Shown: piece by piece, positions 42,370 to 53,823 of the stretch
Numbering within the stretch: position 1 is the first letter of the stretch
Layout: each line of letters opens with the position of its first letter
DNA from: Tabrizicola sp.
GTDB taxonomy: Bacteria > Pseudomonadota > Alphaproteobacteria > Rhodobacterales > Rhodobacteraceae
NCBI RefSeq assembly: GCF_016792905.1
Contig: NZ_JAEULP010000054.1
Span: 1-53,823 of the forward strand
DNA length: 53,823 nucleotides
Direction: 5' to 3'
Notes under the pieces: generated by a model
The model's database searches: none
Seen by the model: the letters and a program-made list of their open reading frames with translations, nothing else
What the model was told of the DNA's origin: nothing
Program-made: the position numbers and the translations under genes

Positions 42370-42388
42370 TGATGCAAAATGATACATC
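42370..42388 (+). promoter_or_regulatory. Copy 1 of the TGATGCNNAATGNNNCA motif (upstream of the PanB-like gene)
   Basis: TGATGCAAAATGATACATC, about 85 bases before the start codon. GATG and CATC at the ends are inverted. Near-identical copies precede lacI and the oxygenase genes, making it a likely LacI-family operator. Confidence 0.6.
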
Positions 42389-42473: not shown

Positions 42474-43262
42474 ATGCCGAAAACTACCGTCGCCACACTT
42501 CTGCAACAGAAGAGCGCGCGAAAATGGGTGCAGGTCCATGTCGACACCGCCGCCGAGGCCGCGGCCGCCGAAGCCGCCGAGATCGTGATCCTGTCCTGCG
42601 AGGCCGACCACACCCTGCCGGGCATCCGCGCTGCCGCGCCCTCGGCGCTGATTTCCGCCGGGATGCCGCATGGCTCCTCTGCCACGCCGGACGAGGCCGT
42701 CCGTGCCGGGTTCGACGCCCTGCGCCGGGGGGCGGATGCCATTTACTGCTCGCACTCCCCCCGCTTCATCGAGGCCATGGCACGAGAGGGCATCCCGGTG
42801 ACGGGACATGTCGGACTGGTGCCGAACCTTGCCGCCTGGACCGGGTTTCGCGCCATCGGGCGGACCGCGAAAGAGGCGCTGACCGTGCTTCGGAAGGCGA
42901 AGGACATCGAAAATGCCGGGGCGGCCTTCGTCGAGGTCGAGGTGGTTCCGGTCCAACTTGCCGACCATATCACCCGGATGACGCCGATGATCACCATGGG
43001 CATGGGCTGCGGTTCAGTCTGCGACACGCAGTACCTGTTTTCCAGCGATGTGCTGGGTACCAACACCGGCCACTATCCGCGCCACTCCAAACGCTACGCT
43101 GATTTCGCCGCTATCGAGGCAGAACTGCAGGCCAAGCGGGTTGCGGCCTTCCAGGACTTTGTCGAGGACGTCACCCGGTCGCGCTATCCGGAGCGTCGGC
43201 ACGAGGTCTGGATGGATGAGGCCGAGGCCGAAGCCTTCGCCAAGGGGTCAGCGTCACTCTGA
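42474..43262 (+). CDS. Divergent ketopantoate hydroxymethyltransferase (PanB)-like protein
   Basis: A 262-aa TIM-barrel protein of the PanB/phosphoenolpyruvate-mutase superfamily. The C-terminal half is PanB-like: IPVTGHVGLVPN, AFVEVEVVPVQLADHIT with the PanB base-type Glu (EVEVVP), and ITMGMGCGSVCDTQYLFSSDVLG. The expected metal ligands differ, however. PanB's ADMPF is SAGMPH (residues 61-66) and its KLEGG is YCSHS (91-95). Classical Mg-dependent hydroxymethyl transfer to ketoisovalerate is therefore doubtful. AAGGAGG lies ten bases before the ATG. It is followed by a LacI gene and shares an operator-like motif with it. It may carry out an aldol or C-C lyase reaction in a sugar-derived pathway; this is inference. 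Confidence 0.7.
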   Translation: MPKTTVATLLQQKSARKWVQVHVDTAAEAAAAEAAEIVILSCEADHTLPGIRAAAPSALISAGMPHGSSATPDEAVRAGFDALRRGADAIYCSHSPRFIEAMAREGIPVTGHVGLVPNLAAWTGFRAIGRTAKEALTVLRKAKDIENAGAAFVEVEVVPVQLADHITRMTPMITMGMGCGSVCDTQYLFSSDVLGTNTGHYPRHSKRYADFAAIEAELQAKRVAAFQDFVEDVTRSRYPERRHEVWMDEAEAEAFAKGSASL

Positions 43263-43294
43263 CCCCTTGCCAGCGGCGGCGTCCTGCGGCAGCG

Positions 43295-43330
43295 TGATGC
43301 GAAATGCCTCACTCTGCAAGGATGCATCAT
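43295..43330 (+). promoter_or_regulatory. Copy 2 of the motif plus GATGCATC palindrome at the lacI start
   Basis: TGATGCGAAATGCCTCA (43295-43311) matches the shared motif. GATGCATC (43321-43328) abuts the lacI ATG and overlaps its ribosome site. Binding there would block the regulator's own expression. Confidence 0.6.
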
Positions 43331-44327
43331 GCGCCGCGTCACCGTTGCCGACATCATGCGCGAAACCGGCCTGTCCCGGGCGACCGTGGACCGGGCGCTC
43401 AACGGGCGCGGTCGGGTACATGACCGCACCCGCCTGGTCGTTGAAGAGACGCTGCGCAAGCTGATGTCACCCGGCGCCGAGGGTCCGGCGCGGCCAGTTG
43501 CCGCCGACATTGCGCTTCGCGTCGGCAAGGGCATGATGGGGCAGATGCGCGCCGCCTGGGAGGCCAGCGGCGCGAAGGGGGCGTTCCATGACCTTCACAT
43601 GGCGGATGATGTCGCCGTGCTGCGCAGCGTCGAGGCGCTGTGCCGTGACACCTCGCGCCCGCTGATCGTGACGGCCAAGACATCCGACCGGCTGACCGCC
43701 GTCCTTGCGGCCGCCCGGGCGAAGGGCAAGCGGATCATCGCCATGATCTCGGATCAGGCTTCTCCGGTGCGGGATGCCTTCGTCGGGCTGGACGACCGCG
43801 CCGCAGGGCAGACGGCGGCATTCCTGATCGGCCGCATGCTGGGCGACCGGCCGACCACGGTGGGCGTGGTGCTGGGCAGCCCGGCATTTCGCAACCACGA
43901 AGACCGGGAAATCGGTTTTCGCTCCGGTCTCCGGGCGAATTTTCCGAAGGTGGTGATTTCGGGCGAGGCGCAGGGCGAAGACAGCGCCGACCTGACCCGG
44001 AATGCAGTCAACCGGCTCCTGCGTGACCAGCCGGCGCTTGGGGCGATCTACAACGTCGGTGGCGGCAACATGGGGCTGGTCGAAGCCCTGCGCGCCGCGG
44101 GCCGGGCCTCGGACATGCTGGTCGTCGGGCATGAGGTAAACCCGGTTACGACACCCCTTCTGCGCGCCGGGGCGATGGATTTTGCCATCGCGGGTGATCC
44201 GGCGAATCTGCTGTCCAACGCGCTGGCTCTGGCCGGAGATCCCGATCTGGCCAGATCGGGGGCCGAGCGGCATCTGGAGTTCGGCATCTACACCCGGTTC
44301 AATCTGCCCGGCTTCGGCGCGGCATGA
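43329..44327 (+). CDS. LacI-family transcriptional regulator
   Basis: A 332-aa repressor-type regulator. The N-terminal helix-turn-helix and hinge ([23 protein letters not shown]) are canonical LacI. A periplasmic-binding-protein-like effector domain (about residues 60-320) follows, with DDRAAGQTAAFLIGRMLG and the ligand-cleft element YNVGGGNMGLVEAL. Such regulators sense sugars or cyclitols. The same ligand class is expected for the CUT2 importer encoded 2 kb downstream. The ATG is directly joined to a GATGCATC palindrome, so autorepression is likely. Confidence 0.92.
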   Translation: MRRVTVADIMRETGLSRATVDRALNGRGRVHDRTRLVVEETLRKLMSPGAEGPARPVAADIALRVGKGMMGQMRAAWEASGAKGAFHDLHMADDVAVLRSVEALCRDTSRPLIVTAKTSDRLTAVLAAARAKGKRIIAMISDQASPVRDAFVGLDDRAAGQTAAFLIGRMLGDRPTTVGVVLGSPAFRNHEDREIGFRSGLRANFPKVVISGEAQGEDSADLTRNAVNRLLRDQPALGAIYNVGGGNMGLVEALRAAGRASDMLVVGHEVNPVTTPLLRAGAMDFAIAGDPANLLSNALALAGDPDLARSGAERHLEFGIYTRFNLPGFGAA

Positions 44328-44715
44328 CCTGTCCGCGACGAATCGCCGCGCACTCCGCCGAAACGCGCGGCGAGGTCGCCTTGTCAGTTTGCATCATTGC
44401 TTTGCCCCTGCCGGGTCCGTCCCCGGGTCGATGGCAGGAAAAGATGCATAATGACGCAGACACTGATGCGAAATGCAGAAATGTATTGCGCTAACAGTAA
44501 GGCCGCCGTCAGGGTGCCTCTCACGACAGCACCTTCTGTCGGGGAGGCTTGGTCTGCGTCGGGGGAGAGAGCGCAGGCTCCTAGGAAATGGATGGGCACC
44601 CGCGACCGCGCCTGGCGCGCCCGGTGCCCGGATGGCAGCTTCCTCCCAAGGAAGTTCTCCCAGCAACCTGCGGTCGGGCGGCCTCCGCCCGGCCGGATTT
44701 CAAAGGATGGCAGCG
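44328..44715 (+). promoter_or_regulatory. Long control and leader region of the oxygenase genes: three motif copies and a run of hairpins
   Basis: Motif copies are at 44390-44400 (reverse strand, TGATGCAAACTG), 44443-44459 (GATGCATAATGACGCAG) and 44464-44480 (TGATGCGAAATGCAGAA). Between about 44515 and 44695 five stems follow in series. They are CGACAG/CTGTCG inside CCTC/GAGG; CTGCG/CGCAG; GGGCACC/GGTGCCC enclosing GCGC-CTG-GCGC; CTTCC/GGAAG; and GGGCGG/CCGCCC. No known riboswitch core was recognised. An open frame runs through it from 44473 but has no protein-like start. Confidence 0.55.
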
Positions 44716-45735
44716 ATGGACGACCTGAAGTACGGCACCCGCGACAAGCGCGGAAACTGGACCCCGAACAAACCCGCGGGCACCGCGCCGCTGTTCGTCT
44801 TCCCTCCGCAACCGTTGGCCCTGCTGAAATGGCTGCCGAGCTACTTCCTGCCCTACAACGCGCTCTTCTTCCTTTCGGCGCTGGCCTGGTGGGCCTGGGT
44901 CATCCCGTCGGTCGAAGTGATGCAAACGCTCGCCTGGGGCTGGGTCCTTTGGCTGTTCGCCGTGAACGCTGTCGCTGTCTTCCTGTGGTATTCCGCCTTC
45001 GAGTTGCACCTCTACATCCGCCGCGCACAAGGCAACCGCTTCAAGTACAACGGCAAGTTCCCCGCCGACACGCCCTCGGACGTGTTCTGGTTCAAGAGCC
45101 AGAACCTCGACAACTTCCTGCGCGGGTTCCTGTCGGGCGTGCCAATCTGGACCGGGCTCCAGGTGCTGGTCCTGTGGTGCTACGCCAACGGCATCGGCAA
45201 CTGGGTCACGTTTGCCGACCATCCGGTCTGGCTGGTCTTCCTGTGCCTGATCGTCCCGGTGATCCACGAGTTTCACTTCTACTGCATCCACCGGCTGATC
45301 CATGTGCCGATCCTCTACAAGTGGGTGCATTCGGTGCATCACAACTCGATCAACCCCTCGCCATGGTCCAGCCTGTCGATGCACCCGGTCGAGCATCTGG
45401 CCTACTTCTCGACCATCCTTTACCACCTGATCCTGCCCTCGAACCCGCTGATTGCGCTGTATCAGCTGCACTATGCCGGGTTTGGTGCGGTGCCCGGTCA
45501 TGTGGGCTTCGACAAGGTGGAGCTGACCGAGGACACGGGCATCGATAGCCATGCCTTCATCCATTACCTTCACCACAAGTATTTCGAGGTGAACTACGGT
45601 GACGGCTTGATCCCGATCGATAAATGGACGGGCACCTTCCATGATGGCACCAAAGAGGCCGACGAACGAATGAAGGAACGCTATCGCCAGAAGAAAGAGC
45701 GTCTGAACGCCCGCAAGACCACCCCGGCCGAATGA
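44716..45735 (+). CDS. Sterol desaturase/fatty-acid hydroxylase superfamily di-iron oxygenase (MocD-like role)
   Basis: An integral-membrane hydroxylase, 339 aa, with about four to five hydrophobic segments (first at about residues 30-60). The histidine boxes that hold the di-iron centre are all present: HEFHFYCIHRLIH, HSVHHNS and HYLHHKY. Further landmarks are WSSLSMHPVEH and GFDKVELTEDTGIDSHAF. Members insert oxygen into C-H bonds of lipids or small molecules and need an electron donor; the next gene encodes a Rieske ferredoxin. In rhizopine catabolism the analogous pair is MocD/MocE. AAAGGA before the ATG at 44716 favours that start over ATG 44707. Confidence 0.87.
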   Translation: MDDLKYGTRDKRGNWTPNKPAGTAPLFVFPPQPLALLKWLPSYFLPYNALFFLSALAWWAWVIPSVEVMQTLAWGWVLWLFAVNAVAVFLWYSAFELHLYIRRAQGNRFKYNGKFPADTPSDVFWFKSQNLDNFLRGFLSGVPIWTGLQVLVLWCYANGIGNWVTFADHPVWLVFLCLIVPVIHEFHFYCIHRLIHVPILYKWVHSVHHNSINPSPWSSLSMHPVEHLAYFSTILYHLILPSNPLIALYQLHYAGFGAVPGHVGFDKVELTEDTGIDSHAFIHYLHHKYFEVNYGDGLIPIDKWTGTFHDGTKEADERMKERYRQKKERLNARKTTPAE

Positions 45736-45755
45736 CCACCCGAGAAGGACAAGAC

Positions 45756-46064
45756 ATGCCCTGGATCGACGCCTGCTCGACCGACGATATCCCTGCCGAA
45801 GACGTGATCCGTTTCGATCATGGCGGCCGGACCTTCATCATCGTTCGCAACCATGCTGACGAGTATTTCTGCGCGGACGGCCTCTGCACGCATGAGGAAA
45901 TCCATCTCTGCGAAGGCCTGGTGATGGAGGGCACCATCGAATGCCCGAAGCATTCGTCGATCTTCAACCTGGCGACGGGCGAGGTCGAGACGCCCCCCGC
46001 CTGCGAGAATCTGCGGACCTACGGGACGCGAGTCGAGAATGGCCGGGTCATGGTGAACCTGTAG
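45756..46064 (+). CDS. Rieske-type [2Fe-2S] ferredoxin, MocE family
   Basis: A 102-aa Rieske ferredoxin that should deliver electrons to the upstream oxygenase. The cluster ligands are C44-x-H46 (CTH) and C63-x2-H66 (CPKH). The start PWIDACSTDDIPAEDVIRFDHGGRTF and the DEYFCADGLCTHEE context are those of the MocE family. No ferredoxin reductase (MocF) gene is adjacent. The ATG at 45756 follows AAGGA; an ATG at 45732 overlapping the preceding stop is an alternative. Either way it is co-transcribed with the oxygenase. Confidence 0.9.
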   Translation: MPWIDACSTDDIPAEDVIRFDHGGRTFIIVRNHADEYFCADGLCTHEEIHLCEGLVMEGTIECPKHSSIFNLATGEVETPPACENLRTYGTRVENGRVMVNL

Positions 46065-46245
46065 CGCATCACAAGCGACAATCCCTCCAACGAATCTGAA
46101 GACAGACACCTGACTCTGCTGCAAATTCGTGGGGGATCGAATAGCATGGACATAAATCATAGAATCTGATTAATTGACGCCCAGCCAGGAGAGGACGACC
46201 GGAATCGGTCGTCGGCCGCGTCGAGAAGGGGGAGGAACACAGCCA

Positions 46246-47772
46246 ATGCCGGGAGAGCCCGAAGCCAGACGGCCCGTGATCGAGATGCTCGGGATCGAGA
46301 AATCCTTCCCCGGCGTCCGGGCCCTGCACAACGTGCGGTTCGACCTGTTCCCCGGCGAAGTCCATGCCCTGATGGGCGAGAACGGGGCGGGCAAGTCGAC
46401 GCTGATGAAGATCCTCACCGGGGTCTACCAGCCCGATGCGGGCGAGATCCGGGTGGACGACGAACCCGCCGTGTTGCCCGGTCCGCAGGCGGCACAAGCG
46501 CGCGGGATCAGCATCATCCATCAGGAGCTGTTCCTGATGAACCACCTGACCGCCGCCCAGAACATCTTCATCGGTCGCGAGCCGCGCAAGGCGTTCAACC
46601 TCTTCGTCGACGAAGACCAGATGAAGCGCGACGCGGCCGCGATCTTCAAGCGGATGAAGATCGGCATCGACCCGGGCGCCGAGGTCGGGCACATGACCGT
46701 CGCCCGCCAGCAGCTGGTGGAAATCGCCAAGGCCCTGTCCTACAACGCCCGCGTCCTGGTGATGGACGAACCGACCAGCGCCCTGAACGAGACCGAAGTC
46801 GAGCACCTGTTCGCGGTGATCGAGGACCTCAAGGCCAATGGCGTCGGCATCGTCTACATCACCCACAAGATGGACGAGGTGAAGCGCATCGCCGACCGCG
46901 TCACCGTGATGCGCGACGGCCAGTACATCGACACGTTGCCCGCCGCCGCGACGCCGATGTCGAAGATCATCCAGATGATGGTCGGGCGCGAGCTTGCCGA
47001 CCAGCACCGGGCGACCGGCCATGGCACGACCGAGGAAGTTCTGCGGGTCGAGGGGCTGAACCGCGGCCACGTCATAAAGAACGTCAGCTTCACGCTGCAC
47101 AAGGGCGAGATCCTGGGCTTTGCCGGCCTGATGGGGGCGGGCCGGACCGAGGTCGCCCGCGCGGTCTTCGGCGCCGACCCCATCGACAGCGGCTCGATCC
47201 GCATCCATGGGCGCGAGACTCGCGTTGCCACGCCGGCCGACGCGGTGGCGAACGGCATCGCCTACCTGTCCGAGGACCGCAAGCATTTCGGACTCGTGAC
47301 GGGCATGTCGGTTCGCGACAACATCACCATGGCCAGCTGGCGCCGCTACATCTCTGGCCGCGTCTTCATGCGGGATGCGGCGATGGATGCGGTCGCCAAG
47401 GAATATGTCGCAAAGCTGCGGGTCAAGACCCCCTCGGTCGACCAGGTCACCCGGCTTCTGTCCGGCGGCAACCAGCAGAAGGTCGTCATCGGCAAATGGC
47501 TCTTGCGCGACTGCGACATCCTGATCTTCGACGAACCGACACGCGGCATCGACATCGGCGCCAAGGCCGAAATCTACCGCCTGCTGGAGGAACTGGCCGC
47601 GCAGGGCAAGTCGATCATCGTCATTTCATCCGAACTGCCCGAGGTGCTGCGCCTGTCGCACCGCATCGCGGTCATGTGCGAAGGCCGGATTACCGGCGAA
47701 CTCGACGGGCGCACCGCCACCCAGGAAGACATCATGACGCTGGCGACCCAGCGCAACGCCACAGCGGCCTGA
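46246..47772 (+). CDS. Sugar ABC transporter ATP-binding protein (CUT2, RbsA-like)
   Basis: A fused double ATPase of the CUT2 family, 508 aa, for import of monosaccharides or cyclitols. The first domain has Walker [15 protein letters not shown], the FFPGVRAL-like start [11 protein letters not shown], and [13 protein letters not shown]. The second half has the degenerate P-loop [28 protein letters not shown] and [21 protein letters not shown], all typical of RbsA. The ATG at 46246 is preceded by GGGGGAGGAA. A 181-bp gap from the ferredoxin gene suggests a separate promoter. Confidence 0.93.
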
Positions 47773-47787
47773 ACAGGAGACGCCAGA

Positions 47788-48792
47788 ATGTCCGATACAA
47801 CCATGGACAAATCGGGGACCGGCAAGCCGGGCTTCCTGTCCGCAGCCACCCTGCAGAAGGCCGTCGCCTTCGTCGTGCTCATCGCGCTGGTGCTGTTCTT
47901 CTCGATCTTCGCGAACAACTTCGCGACCGGGGCGAACGCCGTCGGCATCATGCAGGCGACTGCGGTCAACGGTGTCCTCGGCGTCGCCGTGACCTTCGTC
48001 ATCATCTCGGGCGGGATCGACCTGTCCGTCGGCACGATGATGACCCTGACCGCGGTCACGGCGGGCCTTGTCCTGACGAACCTCGGCATGCCCTTGCCCA
48101 TCGGCATCCTTGCGGCCATCGCGGCCGGGGCCTTCATGGGTGCTGTCTCGGGCGTCGTCATTGCCAAGCTGAAGATTCCGCCGTTCATCGCCACGCTCGG
48201 CATGATGCAGATCGCCCGTGGCCTTGCCTTGGTCTTCTCGGGGGCGAAGCCGATCTATTTCAACGATACGCCCAGCTACAGCCTGCTGTCCCCGGAAAGC
48301 ACGATCTCCAAGCTTATCCCGGGGGTCGAAATCCCGAACGGCGTCATGATCATGTTCATCGTCGCGATCATCGCCTCGATTGTCTTGAACCGCACGATCA
48401 TCGGCCGGATGATCTTTGCGCTGGGCTCGAACGAAGAGGCCGCGCGGCTGTCCGGGATCAACATCGACAACTGGAAGATCCTGACCTACGCGATCTGCGG
48501 CGGGATCTGCGGCATCGCCGGGCTGATCGTTTCGTCGCGCCTGAACTCGGCGCAGCCGGCGCTGGGGCTTGGCTATGAACTTGATGCCATCGCGGCGGTC
48601 GTCATCGGCGGTACCTCGCTGGCAGGCGGGCGCGGCACGGTCATGGGCACCATCATCGGCGCCTTCATCATGAGCGTATTGACGAACGGCCTCCGCGTGA
48701 TGGGCGTTCTGGAAGAATGGAAGATCGTCGTGACCGGTGTGATCATCATCGTCGCCGTGTTCATCGACATCGTCCTGCGGAAGCGGGCCTAA
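47788..48792 (+). CDS. Sugar ABC transporter permease (CUT2, RbsC-like)
   Basis: Membrane subunit of the CUT2 importer, 334 aa. It has about eight to ten hydrophobic segments, beginning at AVAFVVLIALVLFFSIFA. Family motifs: TFVIISGGIDLSVGTMMTL in the first half, FIATLGMMQIARGLALVFSG in the middle and AAVVIGGTSLAGGRGTVMGT near the end. AGGAG stands before the ATG, 15 bases after the ATPase gene. Confidence 0.93.
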   Translation: MSDTTMDKSGTGKPGFLSAATLQKAVAFVVLIALVLFFSIFANNFATGANAVGIMQATAVNGVLGVAVTFVIISGGIDLSVGTMMTLTAVTAGLVLTNLGMPLPIGILAAIAAGAFMGAVSGVVIAKLKIPPFIATLGMMQIARGLALVFSGAKPIYFNDTPSYSLLSPESTISKLIPGVEIPNGVMIMFIVAIIASIVLNRTIIGRMIFALGSNEEAARLSGINIDNWKILTYAICGGICGIAGLIVSSRLNSAQPALGLGYELDAIAAVVIGGTSLAGGRGTVMGTIIGAFIMSVLTNGLRVMGVLEEWKIVVTGVIIIVAVFIDIVLRKRA

Positions 48793-48878
48793 GCAGGAGG
48801 AGCAACACCTGCCAGGCACCACTGACGTGACGACCCGGATGCGCAGACCGCACCGGACTAACCCAAAGGGAGTGAGAA

Positions 48879-49808
48879 ATGAAGAAGACCCTCATGACTT
48901 CGGCACTGGCCCTCGGCCTTGCCTTCGGCGCGGCGCCGAGCTTCGCCGAAACCTATTTCCCGATCATCGCCAAGGGCTTCAGCCACCAGTTCTGGCAGGC
49001 CGTGAAGGCGGGTGCCGAAGAGGCTGCCGCGCGCAATGGCGTGACGATCACCTTCGAGGGCCCGAACACCGAGGCCGAGATCGACAAGCAGACCGACATC
49101 CTGAACGCTGCCATCGCCAAGAATCCGCAGGGCCTGGGCTTTGCCGCGCTCGACAGCCAGGCGCAGGTTCCGGCGCTGCAAAAGGCCGCCGATGCGGGCA
49201 TTCCGATCGTCGCCTTCGACTCGGGCGTCGAATCCGACCTGCCGCTGACCACCTGCACCACCGACAACGTCGCGGCAGCGGCGGCAGCGGCGGATGGGCT
49301 GGCCAAGGCCATCGGTGAAGAGGGTAAGGTTGCGGCGGTGATCCACGACCAGACCTCGGCCACCGGGATCGGGCGTCACGACGGCTTCGTGAACCGGATC
49401 AAGGAAGCCTATCCGAAAATCGAGATCGTCGACGTCCAGTACGCGAACGACGCTGTGAAGGCGACCGACACGATCAAGGCGATGCTCCAGGCGAACCCCG
49501 ACATCAAGGGCTTCTTTGCCTCGAACGAAGGTGCCGCCATCGGCCTTTCGGTCGCGATCAAGGAATCGGGCGCCAACATCGTCGGGGTCGGGTTCGACTC
49601 GGGCAAGAGCCAGAAGGATGCCATCATGGAGGGCACCCTGATCGGCTCCATCACCCAGAACCCGGTCGGCATCGGCCAGTGCGTCGTCGACAGCCTGGTG
49701 AAGGCGCTGGCGGGCGAAACCCTGCCCAAGGTCATCGACACCGGCTTCTACTGGTACGACAAGACCAACATGACCGACCCGAAAATCGCGGCGGTCCTGT
49801 ACGACTGA
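48879..49808 (+). CDS. Sugar ABC transporter substrate-binding protein (CUT2, RbsB/MocB-like)
   Basis: Periplasmic binding protein, 309 aa. The signal peptide MKKTLMTSALALGLAFGAAP ends at SFAE. The type I fold follows: IAKGFSHQFWQAVKAGAEEAA, GPNTEAEIDKQTDILNAAIA, IPIVAFDSGVES and FFASNEGAAIGLSVAIKESG. This resembles ribose-, inositol- and rhizopine-binding proteins. The Phe/Trp residues of KGFSHQFWQ are in the usual ligand-stacking position. AAAGGGAG precedes the ATG. It closes the importer operon and is followed by a hairpin terminator. Confidence 0.92.
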   Translation: MKKTLMTSALALGLAFGAAPSFAETYFPIIAKGFSHQFWQAVKAGAEEAAARNGVTITFEGPNTEAEIDKQTDILNAAIAKNPQGLGFAALDSQAQVPALQKAADAGIPIVAFDSGVESDLPLTTCTTDNVAAAAAAADGLAKAIGEEGKVAAVIHDQTSATGIGRHDGFVNRIKEAYPKIEIVDVQYANDAVKATDTIKAMLQANPDIKGFFASNEGAAIGLSVAIKESGANIVGVGFDSGKSQKDAIMEGTLIGSITQNPVGIGQCVVDSLVKALAGETLPKVIDTGFYWYDKTNMTDPKIAAVLYD

Positions 49809-49860: not shown

Positions 49861-50811
49861 TCAGCCGATCTTTGCGCGCTGGACCAGGGGCGAGCGGCCG
49901 AAATGGCTGCGGAAAACTTTCGAGAAATGCGATGTCGACTGGAACCCGCAGGCCATGGCGATTTCCGTCACCGATTGCTCGGTCTGCACCAGCAGATTCT
50001 GAGCCCGGTTCAGGCGCATCTCCATGAAATAGTGCTTTGGGGTGGAGTTCAGGTAGCGTGCGAACAGCCGTTCCAGCTGCCGGGTCGATATGCCCAGCTC
50101 CTCGGCGATCAGACTGGGGGATTCCGGGGTCTCGATGCTGGTTTCCATGATCGCGATGGCGCGCTTCAGGTGCTCGTTGCGCATCCCGTGCCGAGACTGC
50201 ACCGATACCCGCTGCGCCGCCGTGCCTTCGCGCACGGCATTGTAGACCATCTGGTCCGCGACTTCGGTCGCCAGGTCCTGCCCGTGCGCCTTGCCGATCA
50301 GGTGCAGCATCAGGTCCGCCGCCGCCGTTCCGCCCGAGGCGGTGATGATCTTCTCCCGCGCGACAAAGACATTGCGCACCAGGCGGACGTCCGGGAACTC
50401 CTCTGTGAAAAGGTCGTGCCAGGCCCAGTGGACCGCCGTCTCCACCCCGTCCAGAAACCCGGCCTTCGCCAGCACATAGGCCCCCGAGCAGATCGCACCC
50501 AGGGGCGTGCCCGACGCCCGTTCGCGCCGCAACCAGTTCAGCACGGGCGCGGTGGTGTGGGATTGCACATCGACACCCGAAATCACGAACAGCCGGTCGG
50601 CATGATGCGTGGGTTCCAGTCCCGCCTCGGTCAGCGTGACCGAACCGTTCGAGCAGGTGGCCGTCTTGCCGTCCGCGCTGGCCAGGGTCCAGCGGTAAAG
50701 CGGCCGACCCGAGACCAGGTTGGCGATCCGCAGCGGTTCCAGCGCACAGGAAAAGGCGATGTGGGTGAACTCGGGCAGCAGGAAGAAGGTGAAATGCTGG
50801 GTCTCGCTCAT
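49861..50811 (-). CDS. GlxA-type AraC-family regulator, GbdR-like
   Basis: A 316-aa regulator with an N-terminal GATase1/PfpI-like domain (residues about 8-185, elbow GAICSGAYVLAKAG). The C-terminal AraC domain has IAEELGISTRQLERLFARYL and IAMACGFQSTSHFSKVFRSHFGRSP. GbdR of Pseudomonas, of the same architecture, activates glycine betaine catabolism. The gene is directly downstream of a betaine-type importer in the same orientation, so a GbdR-like function fits. ATG 50811 is chosen; a GTG at 50820 is in frame. A strong terminator separates it from proX, so read-through or a very short promoter must supply it. Confidence 0.87.
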   Translation of the reverse strand: MSETQHFTFFLLPEFTHIAFSCALEPLRIANLVSGRPLYRWTLASADGKTATCSNGSVTLTEAGLEPTHHADRLFVISGVDVQSHTTAPVLNWLRRERASGTPLGAICSGAYVLAKAGFLDGVETAVHWAWHDLFTEEFPDVRLVRNVFVAREKIITASGGTAAADLMLHLIGKAHGQDLATEVADQMVYNAVREGTAAQRVSVQSRHGMRNEHLKRAIAIMETSIETPESPSLIAEELGISTRQLERLFARYLNSTPKHYFMEMRLNRAQNLLVQTEQSVTEIAMACGFQSTSHFSKVFRSHFGRSPLVQRAKIG

Positions 50812-50828
50812 GTCTCGCACCCTACATG

Positions 50829-50856
50829 CAAAAGGGCCGCCCCGGAAGGCGGCCCC
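50829..50856 (-). terminator. Rho-independent terminator after proX
   Basis: On the minus strand GGGCCGCC and GGCGGCCC pair around a 6-base loop and are followed by TTTTG. It lies 21 bases beyond the proX stop and just 18 bases before the regulator's start codon. Confidence 0.87.
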
Positions 50857-50876
50857 TCCCGTTCATCTGTCAGGCA

Positions 50877-51860
50877 TCAGTTCGCCGCAGCGCGGGCCGC
50901 AGCCAGCCAGGAGTCGTATTCGGCCTGGTGGGCGGCGATCCATTCGTCGGCATGGCGCTTCAGGTCCTCGGGCTTGTCCTCGCCCTTGGAGATGCGCAGC
51001 GCTTCGGCCGAGACGTCGTTGATGTCGATCTTCGCCGCTTCGAACAGGGCCTTGGCCGCCGGATTCGCTTCGAGGAAGTCGTTGCGGGCGACCACGCGGA
51101 TCGAGTCGACGGCAAAGCCCAGGTTCTTGCCGTTGAACTCGGTGTTCGCGGTCGCGCCATCGGGCAGCGGGGTGCCCGCCGGAACCGACAGCCATTCCGC
51201 ATCCTTGCCCGGGACCAGCTCACCGGCGACCCAGTACGGGACCCAGGTATAGTAGAGGATCGACCCGCCGTTGTCCTTCCGCGCCATCGCGTCGGCGATC
51301 ATCGCCGGATATGCACCCTGGTTGTGGGTGACGGTGTCGCGCAGCCCCAGCGCGTCGAGATGCGTCTCGATCACCCGCTCGCAGCCCCAGCCGGGGATGC
51401 AGCCCGCAAGGTCGGCCTTGCCGTCGCCATCGGCGTCGAAGCGCTTGGCCACTTCGGGATCCTTCAGCATCGACAGGTCGGTGACGCCTGCGTCATAGCT
51501 GGCCTTGTCGACCATGTAGCCCTGGATCGCGCCGTCGATCAGCGTGCCGACCTTCGACATCACCGCATCGCCGCCCGCTTCCTGGAAGAAGGCGTCGTGC
51601 AGCACGTCCCAGCTCACCGCCATGAAGTCGGCGTCGCCCGCGCCCACGGCGAGGTGCATAGTCTGGTATTCCGCTTCGTTCGGCGTGGCGATGGTATAGC
51701 CCAGGTCCTCCAGCGCCTTGAACAGGATCAGGTGCTGCATGTGCTCTTCGATCTGCGTCGGCATGATCGGGCGAACGGTCACGCCCTCGCCGGGCTTGTC
51801 ATTTGCAAAGGCGGGGACGGCAAGCGCCAGCGCCAGGGCCGTAGTTGCGAATAGTTTCAT
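50877..51860 (-). CDS. proX: Glycine betaine/proline betaine ABC transporter substrate-binding protein
   Basis: Periplasmic quaternary-amine binding protein, 327 aa. The signal peptide (MKLFATTALALALAVPAFA) is followed by NDKPGEGVTVRPIMPTQ. The ProX-type fold shows AGDADFMAVSWDVLH, CIPGWGCERVIETHLDALGL and YYTWVPYWVAGEL. The last supplies Trp/Tyr residues suited to an aromatic box around trimethylammonium groups. It is the third gene of proVWX, 21 bases after proW. Regulation could be osmotic, or catabolic through the GbdR-like gene that follows. Confidence 0.92.
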   Translation of the reverse strand: MKLFATTALALALAVPAFANDKPGEGVTVRPIMPTQIEEHMQHLILFKALEDLGYTIATPNEAEYQTMHLAVGAGDADFMAVSWDVLHDAFFQEAGGDAVMSKVGTLIDGAIQGYMVDKASYDAGVTDLSMLKDPEVAKRFDADGDGKADLAGCIPGWGCERVIETHLDALGLRDTVTHNQGAYPAMIADAMARKDNGGSILYYTWVPYWVAGELVPGKDAEWLSVPAGTPLPDGATANTEFNGKNLGFAVDSIRVVARNDFLEANPAAKALFEAAKIDINDVSAEALRISKGEDKPEDLKRHADEWIAAHQAEYDSWLAAARAAAN

Positions 51861-51881
51861 CAGGTGTCTCCCAGTTGGTTG

Positions 51882-52820
51882 TCAGGTGGTCTTCTTGAAC
51901 ATGGCAGTGATCAGGCCCACCGGCCCGGTCTCCCACCAATGGCGATGCCCGCGGTCCCGGCCCGACCGGCCAAGCCCTTGGGTGATCCTGTCCAGCACGA
52001 TGGCCAGCATCACGATGCCCAGGCCGCCGACGATGGCCTTGCCCGCATCCAGCCGCCCCATCGCCCGCAGCACTTCGTTCCCCAGCCCCTTGACCGAGAT
52101 CATCGAGGCGATGACCACCATCGACAGGGACAGCATGATCGTCTGGTTCAGCCCGGCAAGGATCGTCGGCGTCGCCAGCGGCAGCTCGACCTTGCGCAGG
52201 ATCTGCCCCGGGCTGGCGCCGAACGCCCGCGCCGCCTCGACCACCGACGGGTTCACCCCCCGGATGCCCAGCGAGGTCAGCCGCACCAGCGGCGGCAGGG
52301 CGAAGATGATCGTCACGATCACGCCCGAGACATTGCCGATCCCGATCATCATCACCACCGGCACCAGGTAGACGAAGGCCGGGATGGTTTGCATCGTGTC
52401 CAGCACCGGACGGATGAAGCCCTCGAACCGGTCACTCTTGCCCGCCAGGATCCCCAGCGGCAGGCCGATGACCACGCAGAGGATGACCGATGCCGCCACA
52501 ATCGCCAGCGTCGTCATCGCCAGCCCCCAGGCCTCGGGTGCCAACAGCCCCAGGATCACCAGGCAGGCCCCGACAACGATGGCCCCGCGCCGCCCCGCCG
52601 CCTGCCAGGCGATCAGCACCAGTGCCACCAGCATCACCACCGGCGGCGTCGCCTGCAGCGCGCTCTCGATGCCGACGATCACCGTCTCGAAGAACTGCTT
52701 GATCGGCTGGATCATCTCGCGGTGCGAGATCGCCCAATGCTTGATCCCGTCGGCCCAGGTCGCGATCCCGAGGTCGACCGAGGCGAAGGGGTTCAGCCAG
52801 TTGAAACCTTCGTCTGCCAT
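51882..52820 (-). CDS. proW: Glycine betaine/proline betaine ABC transporter permease
   Basis: Inner-membrane subunit, 312 aa. The N-terminal extension (FNWLNPFASVDLGIATWAD) precedes helices and is typical of ProW. Membrane segments start around residue 60. The conserved MQTIPAFVYLVPVVMMIGIGNV and the coupling loop NPSVVEAARAFGASPGQILRKVELPLA are present. Its ATG overlaps the proV stop by bases shared in ATGA, so expression is coupled. Confidence 0.93.
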   Translation of the reverse strand: MADEGFNWLNPFASVDLGIATWADGIKHWAISHREMIQPIKQFFETVIVGIESALQATPPVVMLVALVLIAWQAAGRRGAIVVGACLVILGLLAPEAWGLAMTTLAIVAASVILCVVIGLPLGILAGKSDRFEGFIRPVLDTMQTIPAFVYLVPVVMMIGIGNVSGVIVTIIFALPPLVRLTSLGIRGVNPSVVEAARAFGASPGQILRKVELPLATPTILAGLNQTIMLSLSMVVIASMISVKGLGNEVLRAMGRLDAGKAIVGGLGIVMLAIVLDRITQGLGRSGRDRGHRHWWETGPVGLITAMFKKTT

Positions 52821-53823
52821 CAGGCTGCCCTCTCTTCGTCGCGTCCCTGGATGCCGCGCAGAAGCGCGCGCTTCGTCACCACCCCGACCGGCTGGCCCTC
52901 CGCCGCGATCAGGATCGGGTGGTCGGTGCCAACCGCGAGGTCCACCAGTTCGTTCAGGTTCATTTCCGGCCTGCCCATCGGCCAGCCGCCGGTATCCTGC
53001 GGCCCCTGCGCCTGCACATAGGCACCGAAGGGCTGCATGATCCGCGCTGCCGTCACCAGGTCCAGCTTGGAAATCCCGGCCACGAAGTCGGCCACATAGT
53101 CGTCGGCGGGCTTGGTGACGATCTCTTCCGGCGTGCCGATCTGCACCAGGACGCCATCTTTCATGATGGCAATCCGGTCGCCGATGCGGATCGCCTCGTC
53201 CAGGTCATGCGTGATGAAGACGGTCGTCTTGTGCAGCTCTGCCGACAGATCCATGAACGTGCCCTGCAACTGCCGCCGGATCAGCGGGTCCAATGCGCTG
53301 AAGGGCTCGTCCATCAGCAGGATCGTCGGGTCCGCCGCCAGCGCCCGCGCCAGGCCGACCCGCTGCTGCATGCCCCCCGACAGCTCATCCGGGTATTTCC
53401 GGTCCCAGCCCGTCAGGTCCACCATGTCGATGGCCTTGGCCGCGACCTTGGCGCGTTCCGCCTCCGACACCCCCCGCACTTCCAGCGAGAACGCCACGTT
53501 GTCCCGCACCGTCCGGTGCGGCATCAGCGCCATCGACTGGAACACCATGCCGATCTTTTCGGCGCGCAAGCGGCGCAGCGCCTCGGCACCCATCGCGTTG
53601 ACGTTCTGGCCCTCGATATAGACCGTGCCCGAGGTCGGCTCGATCAGCCGGTTGATATGACGGATCAGGGTGGATTTGCCCGACCCCGACAATCCCATGA
53701 TGCAGAAGATCTCGCCCCGGCCCACGCTGAAGCTTGCGTCCTGCACGCCAACGACACAGTCGAACTCCTCGCGGATCGCCTTTTTCGACAGACCCTTGGC
53801 GCGCACGGCCTCCATCGCCTGCC
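52820..53823 (-). CDS. proV: Glycine betaine/proline betaine ABC transporter ATP-binding protein, 5' end beyond the window
   Basis: ATPase of the betaine importer, of which 331-333 residues are visible. Walker A is GLSGSGKSTLI, signature ELSGGMQQRVGLARAL, Walker B ILLMDEPFSALD, switch THDLDEA. The C-terminal CBS-type pair (about residues 245-325) includes VDLAVGTDHPILIAAEG and VGVVTKRALLRGI; in OpuA/ProV these sense ionic strength. An ATG occurs at 53815, but the frame stays open to the window edge. ProV proteins normally have about 20-25 residues before the KGLSKK-like segment, so the true start is probably outside. Confidence 0.93.
   Translation of the reverse strand, partial: QAMEAVRAKGLSKKAIREEFDCVVGVQDASFSVGRGEIFCIMGLSGSGKSTLIRHINRLIEPTSGTVYIEGQNVNAMGAEALRRLRAEKIGMVFQSMALMPHRTVRDNVAFSLEVRGVSEAERAKVAAKAIDMVDLTGWDRKYPDELSGGMQQRVGLARALAADPTILLMDEPFSALDPLIRRQLQGTFMDLSAELHKTTVFITHDLDEAIRIGDRIAIMKDGVLVQIGTPEEIVTKPADDYVADFVAGISKLDLVTAARIMQPFGAYVQAQGPQDTGGWPMGRPEMNLNELVDLAVGTDHPILIAAEGQPVGVVTKRALLRGIQGRDEERAA

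Follow-up and report, generated by a model that had tools for sequence, protein, structure and literature searches.

The closest described relatives of the system considered here are the rhizopine loci mocCABR-mocDEF of Rhizobium and Sinorhizobium, in which MocDEF is taken to carry out the demethylation step. 3-O-methyl-scyllo-inosamine is among the rhizopines, and mocDEF takes part in their catabolism under a rhizopine-inducible promoter (excerpts of PMC10107442 and PMC6668481). LacI-type FixV homologues lie divergently from mocD operons, at times accompanied by an AP_endonuc_2 protein, and an inositol derivative may be what they sense (excerpts of PMC3538637). Ketopantoate hydroxymethyltransferase, the canonical PanB, performs one-carbon (C1) chemistry with methylene-tetrahydrofolate (methylene-THF; excerpts of PMC7770189), and the formaldehyde-fixing enzyme Fae acts on tetrahydromethanopterin, with a THF variant mentioned merely as a possibility (excerpts of PMC7073904). 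We analysed a stretch of 53,823 nucleotides from Tabrizicola sp. (contig NZ_JAEULP010000054.1; hereafter the window) in which a seven-gene block joins a PanB-like protein to a LacI-type regulator, a membrane di-iron hydroxylase, a MocE-type ferredoxin and a ribose-type importer. We put at about even the chance that this block imports a methyl-cyclitol or methyl-sugar and demethylates it oxidatively, with the C1 unit moved to THF by the PanB-like protein.

Like the rhizopine loci, the block contains a MocE-type ferredoxin (144.6 bits with TIGR02377, cut-off 136.15), a membrane di-iron oxygenase and an importer with a periplasmic sugar-binding protein, and both systems are connected with the inositol pathway; we also found, in rhizopine loci, that mocDEF is directly followed by a PanB-like gene and that purU accompanies it. 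Unlike them, its oxygenase belongs to PF04116, the sterol desaturase group (66.5 bits, cut-off 31), and not to the PF00487 family of MocD, its regulator is LacI-type with no match to the MocR model among the block proteins, MocF reductase, MocA and MocC are missing from it, and its binding protein falls far under the rhizopine-binding model NF052284 (76.0 bits, cut-off 420). That protein matched the D-allose model best among curated ones (119.9 bits, cut-off 335) and lay under every curated cut-off, so that the profiles yield no substrate. The sequence-only reading had proposed an import-and-oxidise system related to rhizopine catabolism: the context agrees with it through MocE, IolG, rhizopine-like binding proteins and the MocR loci described below, whereas MocR, MocD and MocF have no counterpart in the block and the rhizopine-binding model stays under its cut-off there. 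It had also placed the oxygenase correctly in the sterol desaturase group, and rightly saw no reductase or inosamine dehydrogenase within the block; the nearest MocF-type ferredoxin reductase is encoded on contig C80 (43%, with neighbours showing no visible link), and the sister cluster L053 of this genome includes an inositol dehydrogenase. The window enzyme shares its family and histidine motifs with the alkylglycerol monooxygenase, sterol C4-methyl oxidase and sphingolipid hydroxylase group, some members of which cleave ether bonds oxidatively, and differs from it by its sugar-importer context and its Rieske ferredoxin partner. The histidine clusters were invariant across 17 sequences; a fold search with the oxygenase model, whose mean predicted local distance difference test (pLDDT) was 67.9, gave no match at E<=0.001. 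The window regulator can be likened to FixV by description only, and FixV of Mesorhizobium loti, a LacI/GalR protein, differs in activating nifA2.

The PanB-like protein resembles PanB in fold, in two conserved residues and in annotation, its relatives being labelled 3-methyl-2-oxobutanoate hydroxymethyltransferase in databases; methylene-THF chemistry belongs to the canonical enzyme and would extend to the window protein by analogy. It scored under the curated PanB cut-offs (TIGR00222, 102.5 against 207.55 bits; NF001452, 122.3 against 272 bits), and the family fell outside the canonical PanB clade. None of D84, K112 and E114 (E. coli numbering) was kept in any of 91 PanB-like sequences, and all three were kept in 32/32 canonical ones (identical sequences were merged, one short fragment was dropped, and a second, distant PanB homologue of L082 was excluded from the 91). 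The window protein has G63, Y91 and S93 at these positions, of which we take D84 and E114 to be Mg ligands. By contrast with these losses, H136 was retained in 91/91 relatives and E181 in 90/91, corresponding to H112 and E156 of the window protein; we make no claim on D45, where the alignment is offset by one or two residues. The predicted model (pLDDT 94.4) has the PanB fold, and its 28 top Foldseek matches and six top VIA matches were all PanB. Since cut-offs, residues, clade and a gene context beside an oxygenase all fail to fit, we rejected a role of this protein in pantothenate synthesis. The genome encodes four PF02548 proteins, one of them canonical.

Two further groups were seen around this family. 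A third alphaproteobacterial PanB group (L194-L202) keeps K112, with S, C or A in place of D84 and Q at 114, and is possibly also repurposed; a deeper PanB-like branch (L182, L184-L190, L211) has mostly S, M and Q at positions 84, 112 and 114, and no oxygenase neighbours in the fetched regions. In one genome (G502) the PanB-like gene is present four times, with two copies side by side.

The neighbours of the PanB-like gene were then compared across relatives, taken as the best 80 of 248 retrieved through two conserved peptides; the query that supplied these peptides came from loci linked to an oxygenase or to MocE. Genes of loci lacking annotation were called by our own script and not by a standard gene finder, each locus was represented by its best-scoring PanB, and 20 canonical control loci came from a phylum-wide sample. 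A membrane di-iron oxygenase of either family lay within 3 kb of the PanB-like gene in 62 of the 80 loci, or 62/65 outside Verrucomicrobia and Planctomycetes, and within 9 kb of canonical PanB in 0/20. The 18 relatives lacking one within 3 kb comprised 15 from Verrucomicrobia or Planctomycetes, one from Woeseiaceae, which carries a PhyH dioxygenase, a Rhizobiales contig (L088) on which a cut PurU follows closely and the 10 kb upstream contain no oxygenase, and L143, where a MocD-type gene lies 5.5 kb away. The adjacency was found in rhizobia, Rhodobacterales and SAR11, and with oxygenases of both PF04116 and PF00487; Pelagibacteraceae loci (L079-L084, L205-L207) have a MocD-like FA_desaturase beside the PanB-like gene. 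Relatives occurred both on chromosomes (L065, L069) and on plasmids, the latter in a plasmid collection, which is no guide to preference; 285 plasmid records matched at E<=1e-20, true PanB possibly included.

The association extends to the rhizopine genes themselves. On plasmid p4 of Rhizobium lentis, genes for MocR (740 bits, cut-off 650), iolE (395.8 bits, cut-off 290), two Gfo/Idh proteins and a binding protein with no match to the rhizopine-binding model at E<=1e-20 are followed by mocD, mocE, mocF, the PanB-like gene and purU. This mocD-mocE-mocF-PanB-like-purU order was seen in all six MocR loci fetched, out of 14 records with at least 80% identity (24 records overall), the other five coming from Phyllobacterium zundukense, Sinorhizobium meliloti BL225C and RCAM1115, R. 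indicum and S. kummerowiae. A FolD match follows purU in three of the six (L264, L265, L268). In S. meliloti BL225C the PanB-like frame (L266:12832-13365) is shorter than in its relatives. The terms panB, purU, hydroxymethyltransferase, deformylase and folate are all absent from the texts of PMC10107442 and PMC6668481, as is panB from that of PMC3538637, and among the papers listed by a search that covered few subscription journals, none described such a protein in the breakdown of rhizopines or methyl-inositols.

Folate genes accompany part of the family: PurU lay within 3 kb in 8/80 and FolD in 3/80 of the best 80 relatives, and either was present at 14/90 oxygenase loci with a PanB-like gene against 0/25 without (Fisher p 0.038, with no correction for kinship or for the way in which loci were fetched). 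Six of these 14 loci were those fetched for MocR, 13 of the 14 were MocD-type, and two of the 25 PanB-less loci (L049, L051) were cut by contig ends, the cluster of L051 having its PanB-like gene beyond the end. One PanB-less cluster has a glutathione-dependent formaldehyde dehydrogenase in place of the PanB-like gene. We infer the transfer to THF from the C1 chemistry of PanB, from the FolD and PurU partners, from the place of the gene right after the demethylase and from this replacement. The FolD and PurU neighbours point to folate chemistry, so that the C-C cleavage which the sequence-only reading had assigned to the PanB-like protein is probably wrong. We also ruled out that PurU is a universal partner, as it was not found in this genome and most loci lack it nearby.

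In the route that we propose, a methylated cyclitol or sugar would be imported by the ribose-type ABC importer under LacI control, and the PF04116 enzyme, receiving electrons through MocE and an NADH:ferredoxin reductase encoded elsewhere, would hydroxylate its methyl group; the reductase would be shared, the one on C80 being the best candidate. The R-O-CH2OH hemiacetal, or formaldehyde shed from it, would pass to the PanB-like protein, which would load the C1 unit on THF to give 5,10-methylene-THF. FolD would oxidise this to 10-formyl-THF, and PurU would release formate in some relatives. The genome of the window contains Fhs, and its sink might be Fhs in reverse or serine synthesis; with PurU not found and both Fhs and a formaldehyde dehydrogenase present, the C1 sink here would differ from the rhizobial one. 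Once demethylated, the inositol or sugar would enter IolG-type or sugar catabolism. The demethylation itself is supported by gene context.

Several observations weigh against this reading. The query being drawn from oxygenase- or MocE-linked proteins, the set of 80 relatives favours this clade. In an even class sample of 385 scored genomes, of which 21 had a PanB-like match above 200 bits (the next match reaching 145.7), 20 regions were fetched, which take in 21 of the 23 places with such a match in genomes other than that of the window; an oxygenase lay within 9 kb in 8/20 loci, three of them from SAR11, and was missing from 12/20. Ten of these 12 (L211, L213-L221) were deeper-branch sequences and two (L203, L204) were close relatives, L203 having MocE, IolG and PurU and no oxygenase in 19 kb. 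The 15 Verrucomicrobia and Planctomycetes loci (L087, L089-L097, L102-L104, L107 and L110) have the residue changes without a nearby oxygenase, which suggests that part of the family may act otherwise; these loci and the Woeseiaceae one showed no shared neighbourhood among the 56 of 105 listed neighbours that were scanned, their commonest neighbour families matching just 2/56. Two scanned SAR11 loci (L080, L081) have carnitine-dehydrogenase-, gamma-butyrobetaine-dioxygenase- or Rieske-oxygenase-like neighbours, the first two kinds both under their cut-offs, so that the substrates may not be cyclitols alone and N-methyl compounds may also be used. Most PanB-like loci lack a nearby folate gene. 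No PurU turned up in the genome of the window, whose assembly is 93% complete (79.5 bits at best against a cut-off of 285.95); the same genome does have a glutathione-dependent formaldehyde dehydrogenase (602.4 bits, cut-off 543.95). Finally, of the 25 PanB-less oxygenase loci just one had a formaldehyde gene of the kinds sought (FrmA, by BLAST or annotation).

In a rival reading that keeps oxidative demethylation, the PanB-like protein would act on the carbon skeleton of an inosose or keto-sugar by a retro-aldol or lyase/isomerase reaction, the C-C cleavage of the sequence-only reading; its presence in Verrucomicrobia and Planctomycetes without oxygenase neighbours speaks for this. Beyond PanB, its fold groups with the C-C bond enzymes PEP mutase and isocitrate lyase, and Gfo/Idh dehydrogenases and TIM-barrel isomerases are often nearby. 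We nevertheless consider such a role rather unlikely, as the acidic D84 and E114 are gone in all 91 sequences, the gene directly follows mocDEF and precedes purU in every fetched MocR locus, and it adjoins oxygenases of two families. The route chemically nearest to canonical PanB would be a C-demethylation that reverses its reaction: on a C-methyl cyclitol such as laminitol or mytilitol, the oxygenase would produce C-CH2OH, IolG the neighbouring ketone, and the PanB-like protein would pass the hydroxymethyl group to THF. IolG in sister clusters and the FolD and PurU neighbours would fit; yet the methyl of rhizopine-type loci sits on oxygen and the PanB-like gene is present anyway, and no dehydrogenase was identified in a compact Pararhizobium gene run containing it, which makes this route hardly credible to us. 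It is likewise improbable that the PanB-like protein is a passenger, or a regulatory or stabilising partner of the oxygenase without C1 chemistry: 25 of 115 oxygenase loci (two of them cut by contig ends) do lack it and the BL225C frame is shortened, but 49 of 262 positions were invariant among ten divergent sequences and the adjacency is kept from rhizobia to Rhodobacterales and SAR11.

The oxygenase shows a distribution of its own. Its close clade (at least 45% identity) occurred in 14/292 Rhodobacterales genomes sampled, and the four sampled congeners gave no match at all; this patchy spread suggests horizontal gain. Within 4 kb of the 18 oxygenases of these 14 genomes we found LacI near 13, a sugar-type binding protein near 11, a permease near 11, MocE near five and the PanB-like gene near two, against none of the five at 20 control loci. 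The genome of the window (3.79 Mb, 91 contigs) has at least six oxygenase loci of this kind. Four contigs (C50, C49, C27, C39) carry hydroxylase copies, three of which are 59-65% identical to that of the window, the copy on C39 having no companion genes within 4 kb, and contig C43 has a MocD-type FA_desaturase with MocE and a PanB-like gene. Contig C27 (106,982 bases) holds one cluster split over its two ends (L051 and L053), with hydroxylase, binding protein and permease at one and MocE, isomerase, PanB-like gene and IolG at the other, and is thus probably a circular plasmid. It also bears a second MocD/MocE locus (L270:8847-16743) with LacI, importer and a 2-hydroxyacid dehydrogenase, and no PanB-like gene. 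A DUF4432 protein, perhaps a sugar-handling partner, is encoded just upstream of MocD/MocE in L119 (L119:7306-8430; PF14486, tested in L119 only), with similar proteins seen by eye in L105 and in this L270 locus. The sister clusters encode IolG (424.8 and 432.5 bits, cut-off 355), Gfo/Idh dehydrogenases and AP_endonuc_2 isomerases, and their binding proteins matched the rhizopine model best, under its cut-off of 420 (151.8 and 143.7 bits).

Elsewhere, clusters of this kind occur in Gemmobacter fulvus p3, Neotabrizicola shimadae, Paracoccus yeei and Jiella pelagia; the oxygenase locus of Rhizobium sp. ACO-34A includes an annotated rhizopine-binding protein, and Bradyrhizobium sp. 155 and Mesorhizobium sp. 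131-2-5 have a ribokinase-family gene, the PanB-like gene, the oxygenase, a Rieske protein and a reductase. On pSymA of Sinorhizobium meliloti ml66 the pair has no sugar importer annotated within 9 kb. The sequence-only reading had held that a pair conserved without importer and regulator would make these genes mere neighbours, here an importer of a common sugar that happens to adjoin a lipid-metabolism oxygenase; the pSymA pair fits that view, but the enrichment of LacI (13/18) and permease (11/18) over controls, the entire block kept in Gemmobacter and the operator-like sites in common, though none precedes the importer, largely refute it and leave it a very small probability. The association is thus real but modular, and the oxygenase/MocE pair is a patchy, often plasmid-borne alphaproteobacterial system with LacI regulators and sugar-type importers.

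The seven genes of the block (42474..49808) all lie on the plus strand, at the positions first noted (Table 1). In Gemmobacter straminiformis (L064) all seven were found in identical order, with 58-89% identity per gene, so that the block is no assembly accident. The LacI helix-turn-helix match of the regulator (25.9 bits) is slightly below the Pfam threshold of 27. The hydroxylase reading frame extends open upstream of 44716, where homologues begin at MDD. The importer has the composition of the CUT2 type, with a two-domain ATPase, a BPD_transp_2 permease and a Peripla_BP_4 binding protein.

Table 1. Genes of the block and operator-like sites, in window coordinates.
Feature	Position	Strand	Basis
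Operator-like site before PanB-like gene	42370..42382	+	motif search
PanB-like protein	42474..43262	+	PF02548, E 2.4e-38
Operator-like site before lacI	43295..43307	+	motif search
LacI/GalR-family regulator	43329..44327	+	Peripla_BP_4, E 4.7e-30
Operator-like site before oxygenase, 1 mismatch	44384..44396	-	motif search
Operator-like site before oxygenase	44464..44476	+	motif search
PF04116 membrane di-iron hydroxylase, proposed oxidative demethylase	44716..45735	+	stop 45735; likely start from homologues
MocE-family Rieske [2Fe-2S] ferredoxin	45756..46064	+	TIGR02377
CUT2/ribose-type ABC ATPase, two ABC domains	46246..47772	+	stop 47772; start inferred by reading the sequence
Ribose-type permease	47788..48792	+	profile matches
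Periplasmic sugar-binding protein	48879..49808	+	profile matches

The motif TGATGCRAAATGM, picked post hoc after inspection of the sequence, had four matches with at most one mismatch in 53.8 kb against 0.20 expected, a number reached in 0/100 shuffles. All four fall in the three gaps upstream of the PanB-like gene, lacI and the oxygenase, and none upstream of the importer genes. The full motif was not found in the relatives L064, L055 and L062; its core TGCATCAT/ATGATGCA alone recurs in L064, between lacI and the oxygenase. Upstream of the block lie FnrL (465.1 bits, cut-off 300) and an open reading frame HemN-like by eye, and downstream, on the opposite strand (49861-53815), an AraC-type regulator nearest GbdR, under its cut-off, and a ProX-type glycine-betaine importer; we see no reason to count any of these genes as part of the block.

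In Mimosa root exudate pinitol was the most concentrated measured component, and the response of R. mesoamericanum included mocDEF homologues up 1.5-2.1 fold together with a mocB-like importer and iol genes, read by the authors as rhizopine use (excerpts of PMC5789663). Pinitol itself may be the simpler explanation, which we propose here. The window system may be a variant of the known rhizopine-type oxidation, in which the PanB-like component would be the new part and perhaps a new enzyme activity. More broadly, we suggest tentatively, and at somewhat less than even probability, that the PanB-like family is a PanB-derived enzyme loading formaldehyde-level carbon from oxidative demethylation onto THF, a hidden component of rhizopine breakdown that rhizobia, Rhodobacterales and SAR11 share and that serves two families of membrane di-iron demethylases. 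It would be a counterpart of Fae, compared by function only, with which it would share the job of putting formaldehyde on a pterin carrier. If true, a natural PanB relative loading formaldehyde on THF would answer an old question of one-carbon metabolism, correct the database label of many rhizobial plasmid genes and complete the rhizopine pathway of plant-microbe signalling. It would also help to explain the use of methylated cyclitols by soil and marine bacteria, filling a gap in such catabolism.

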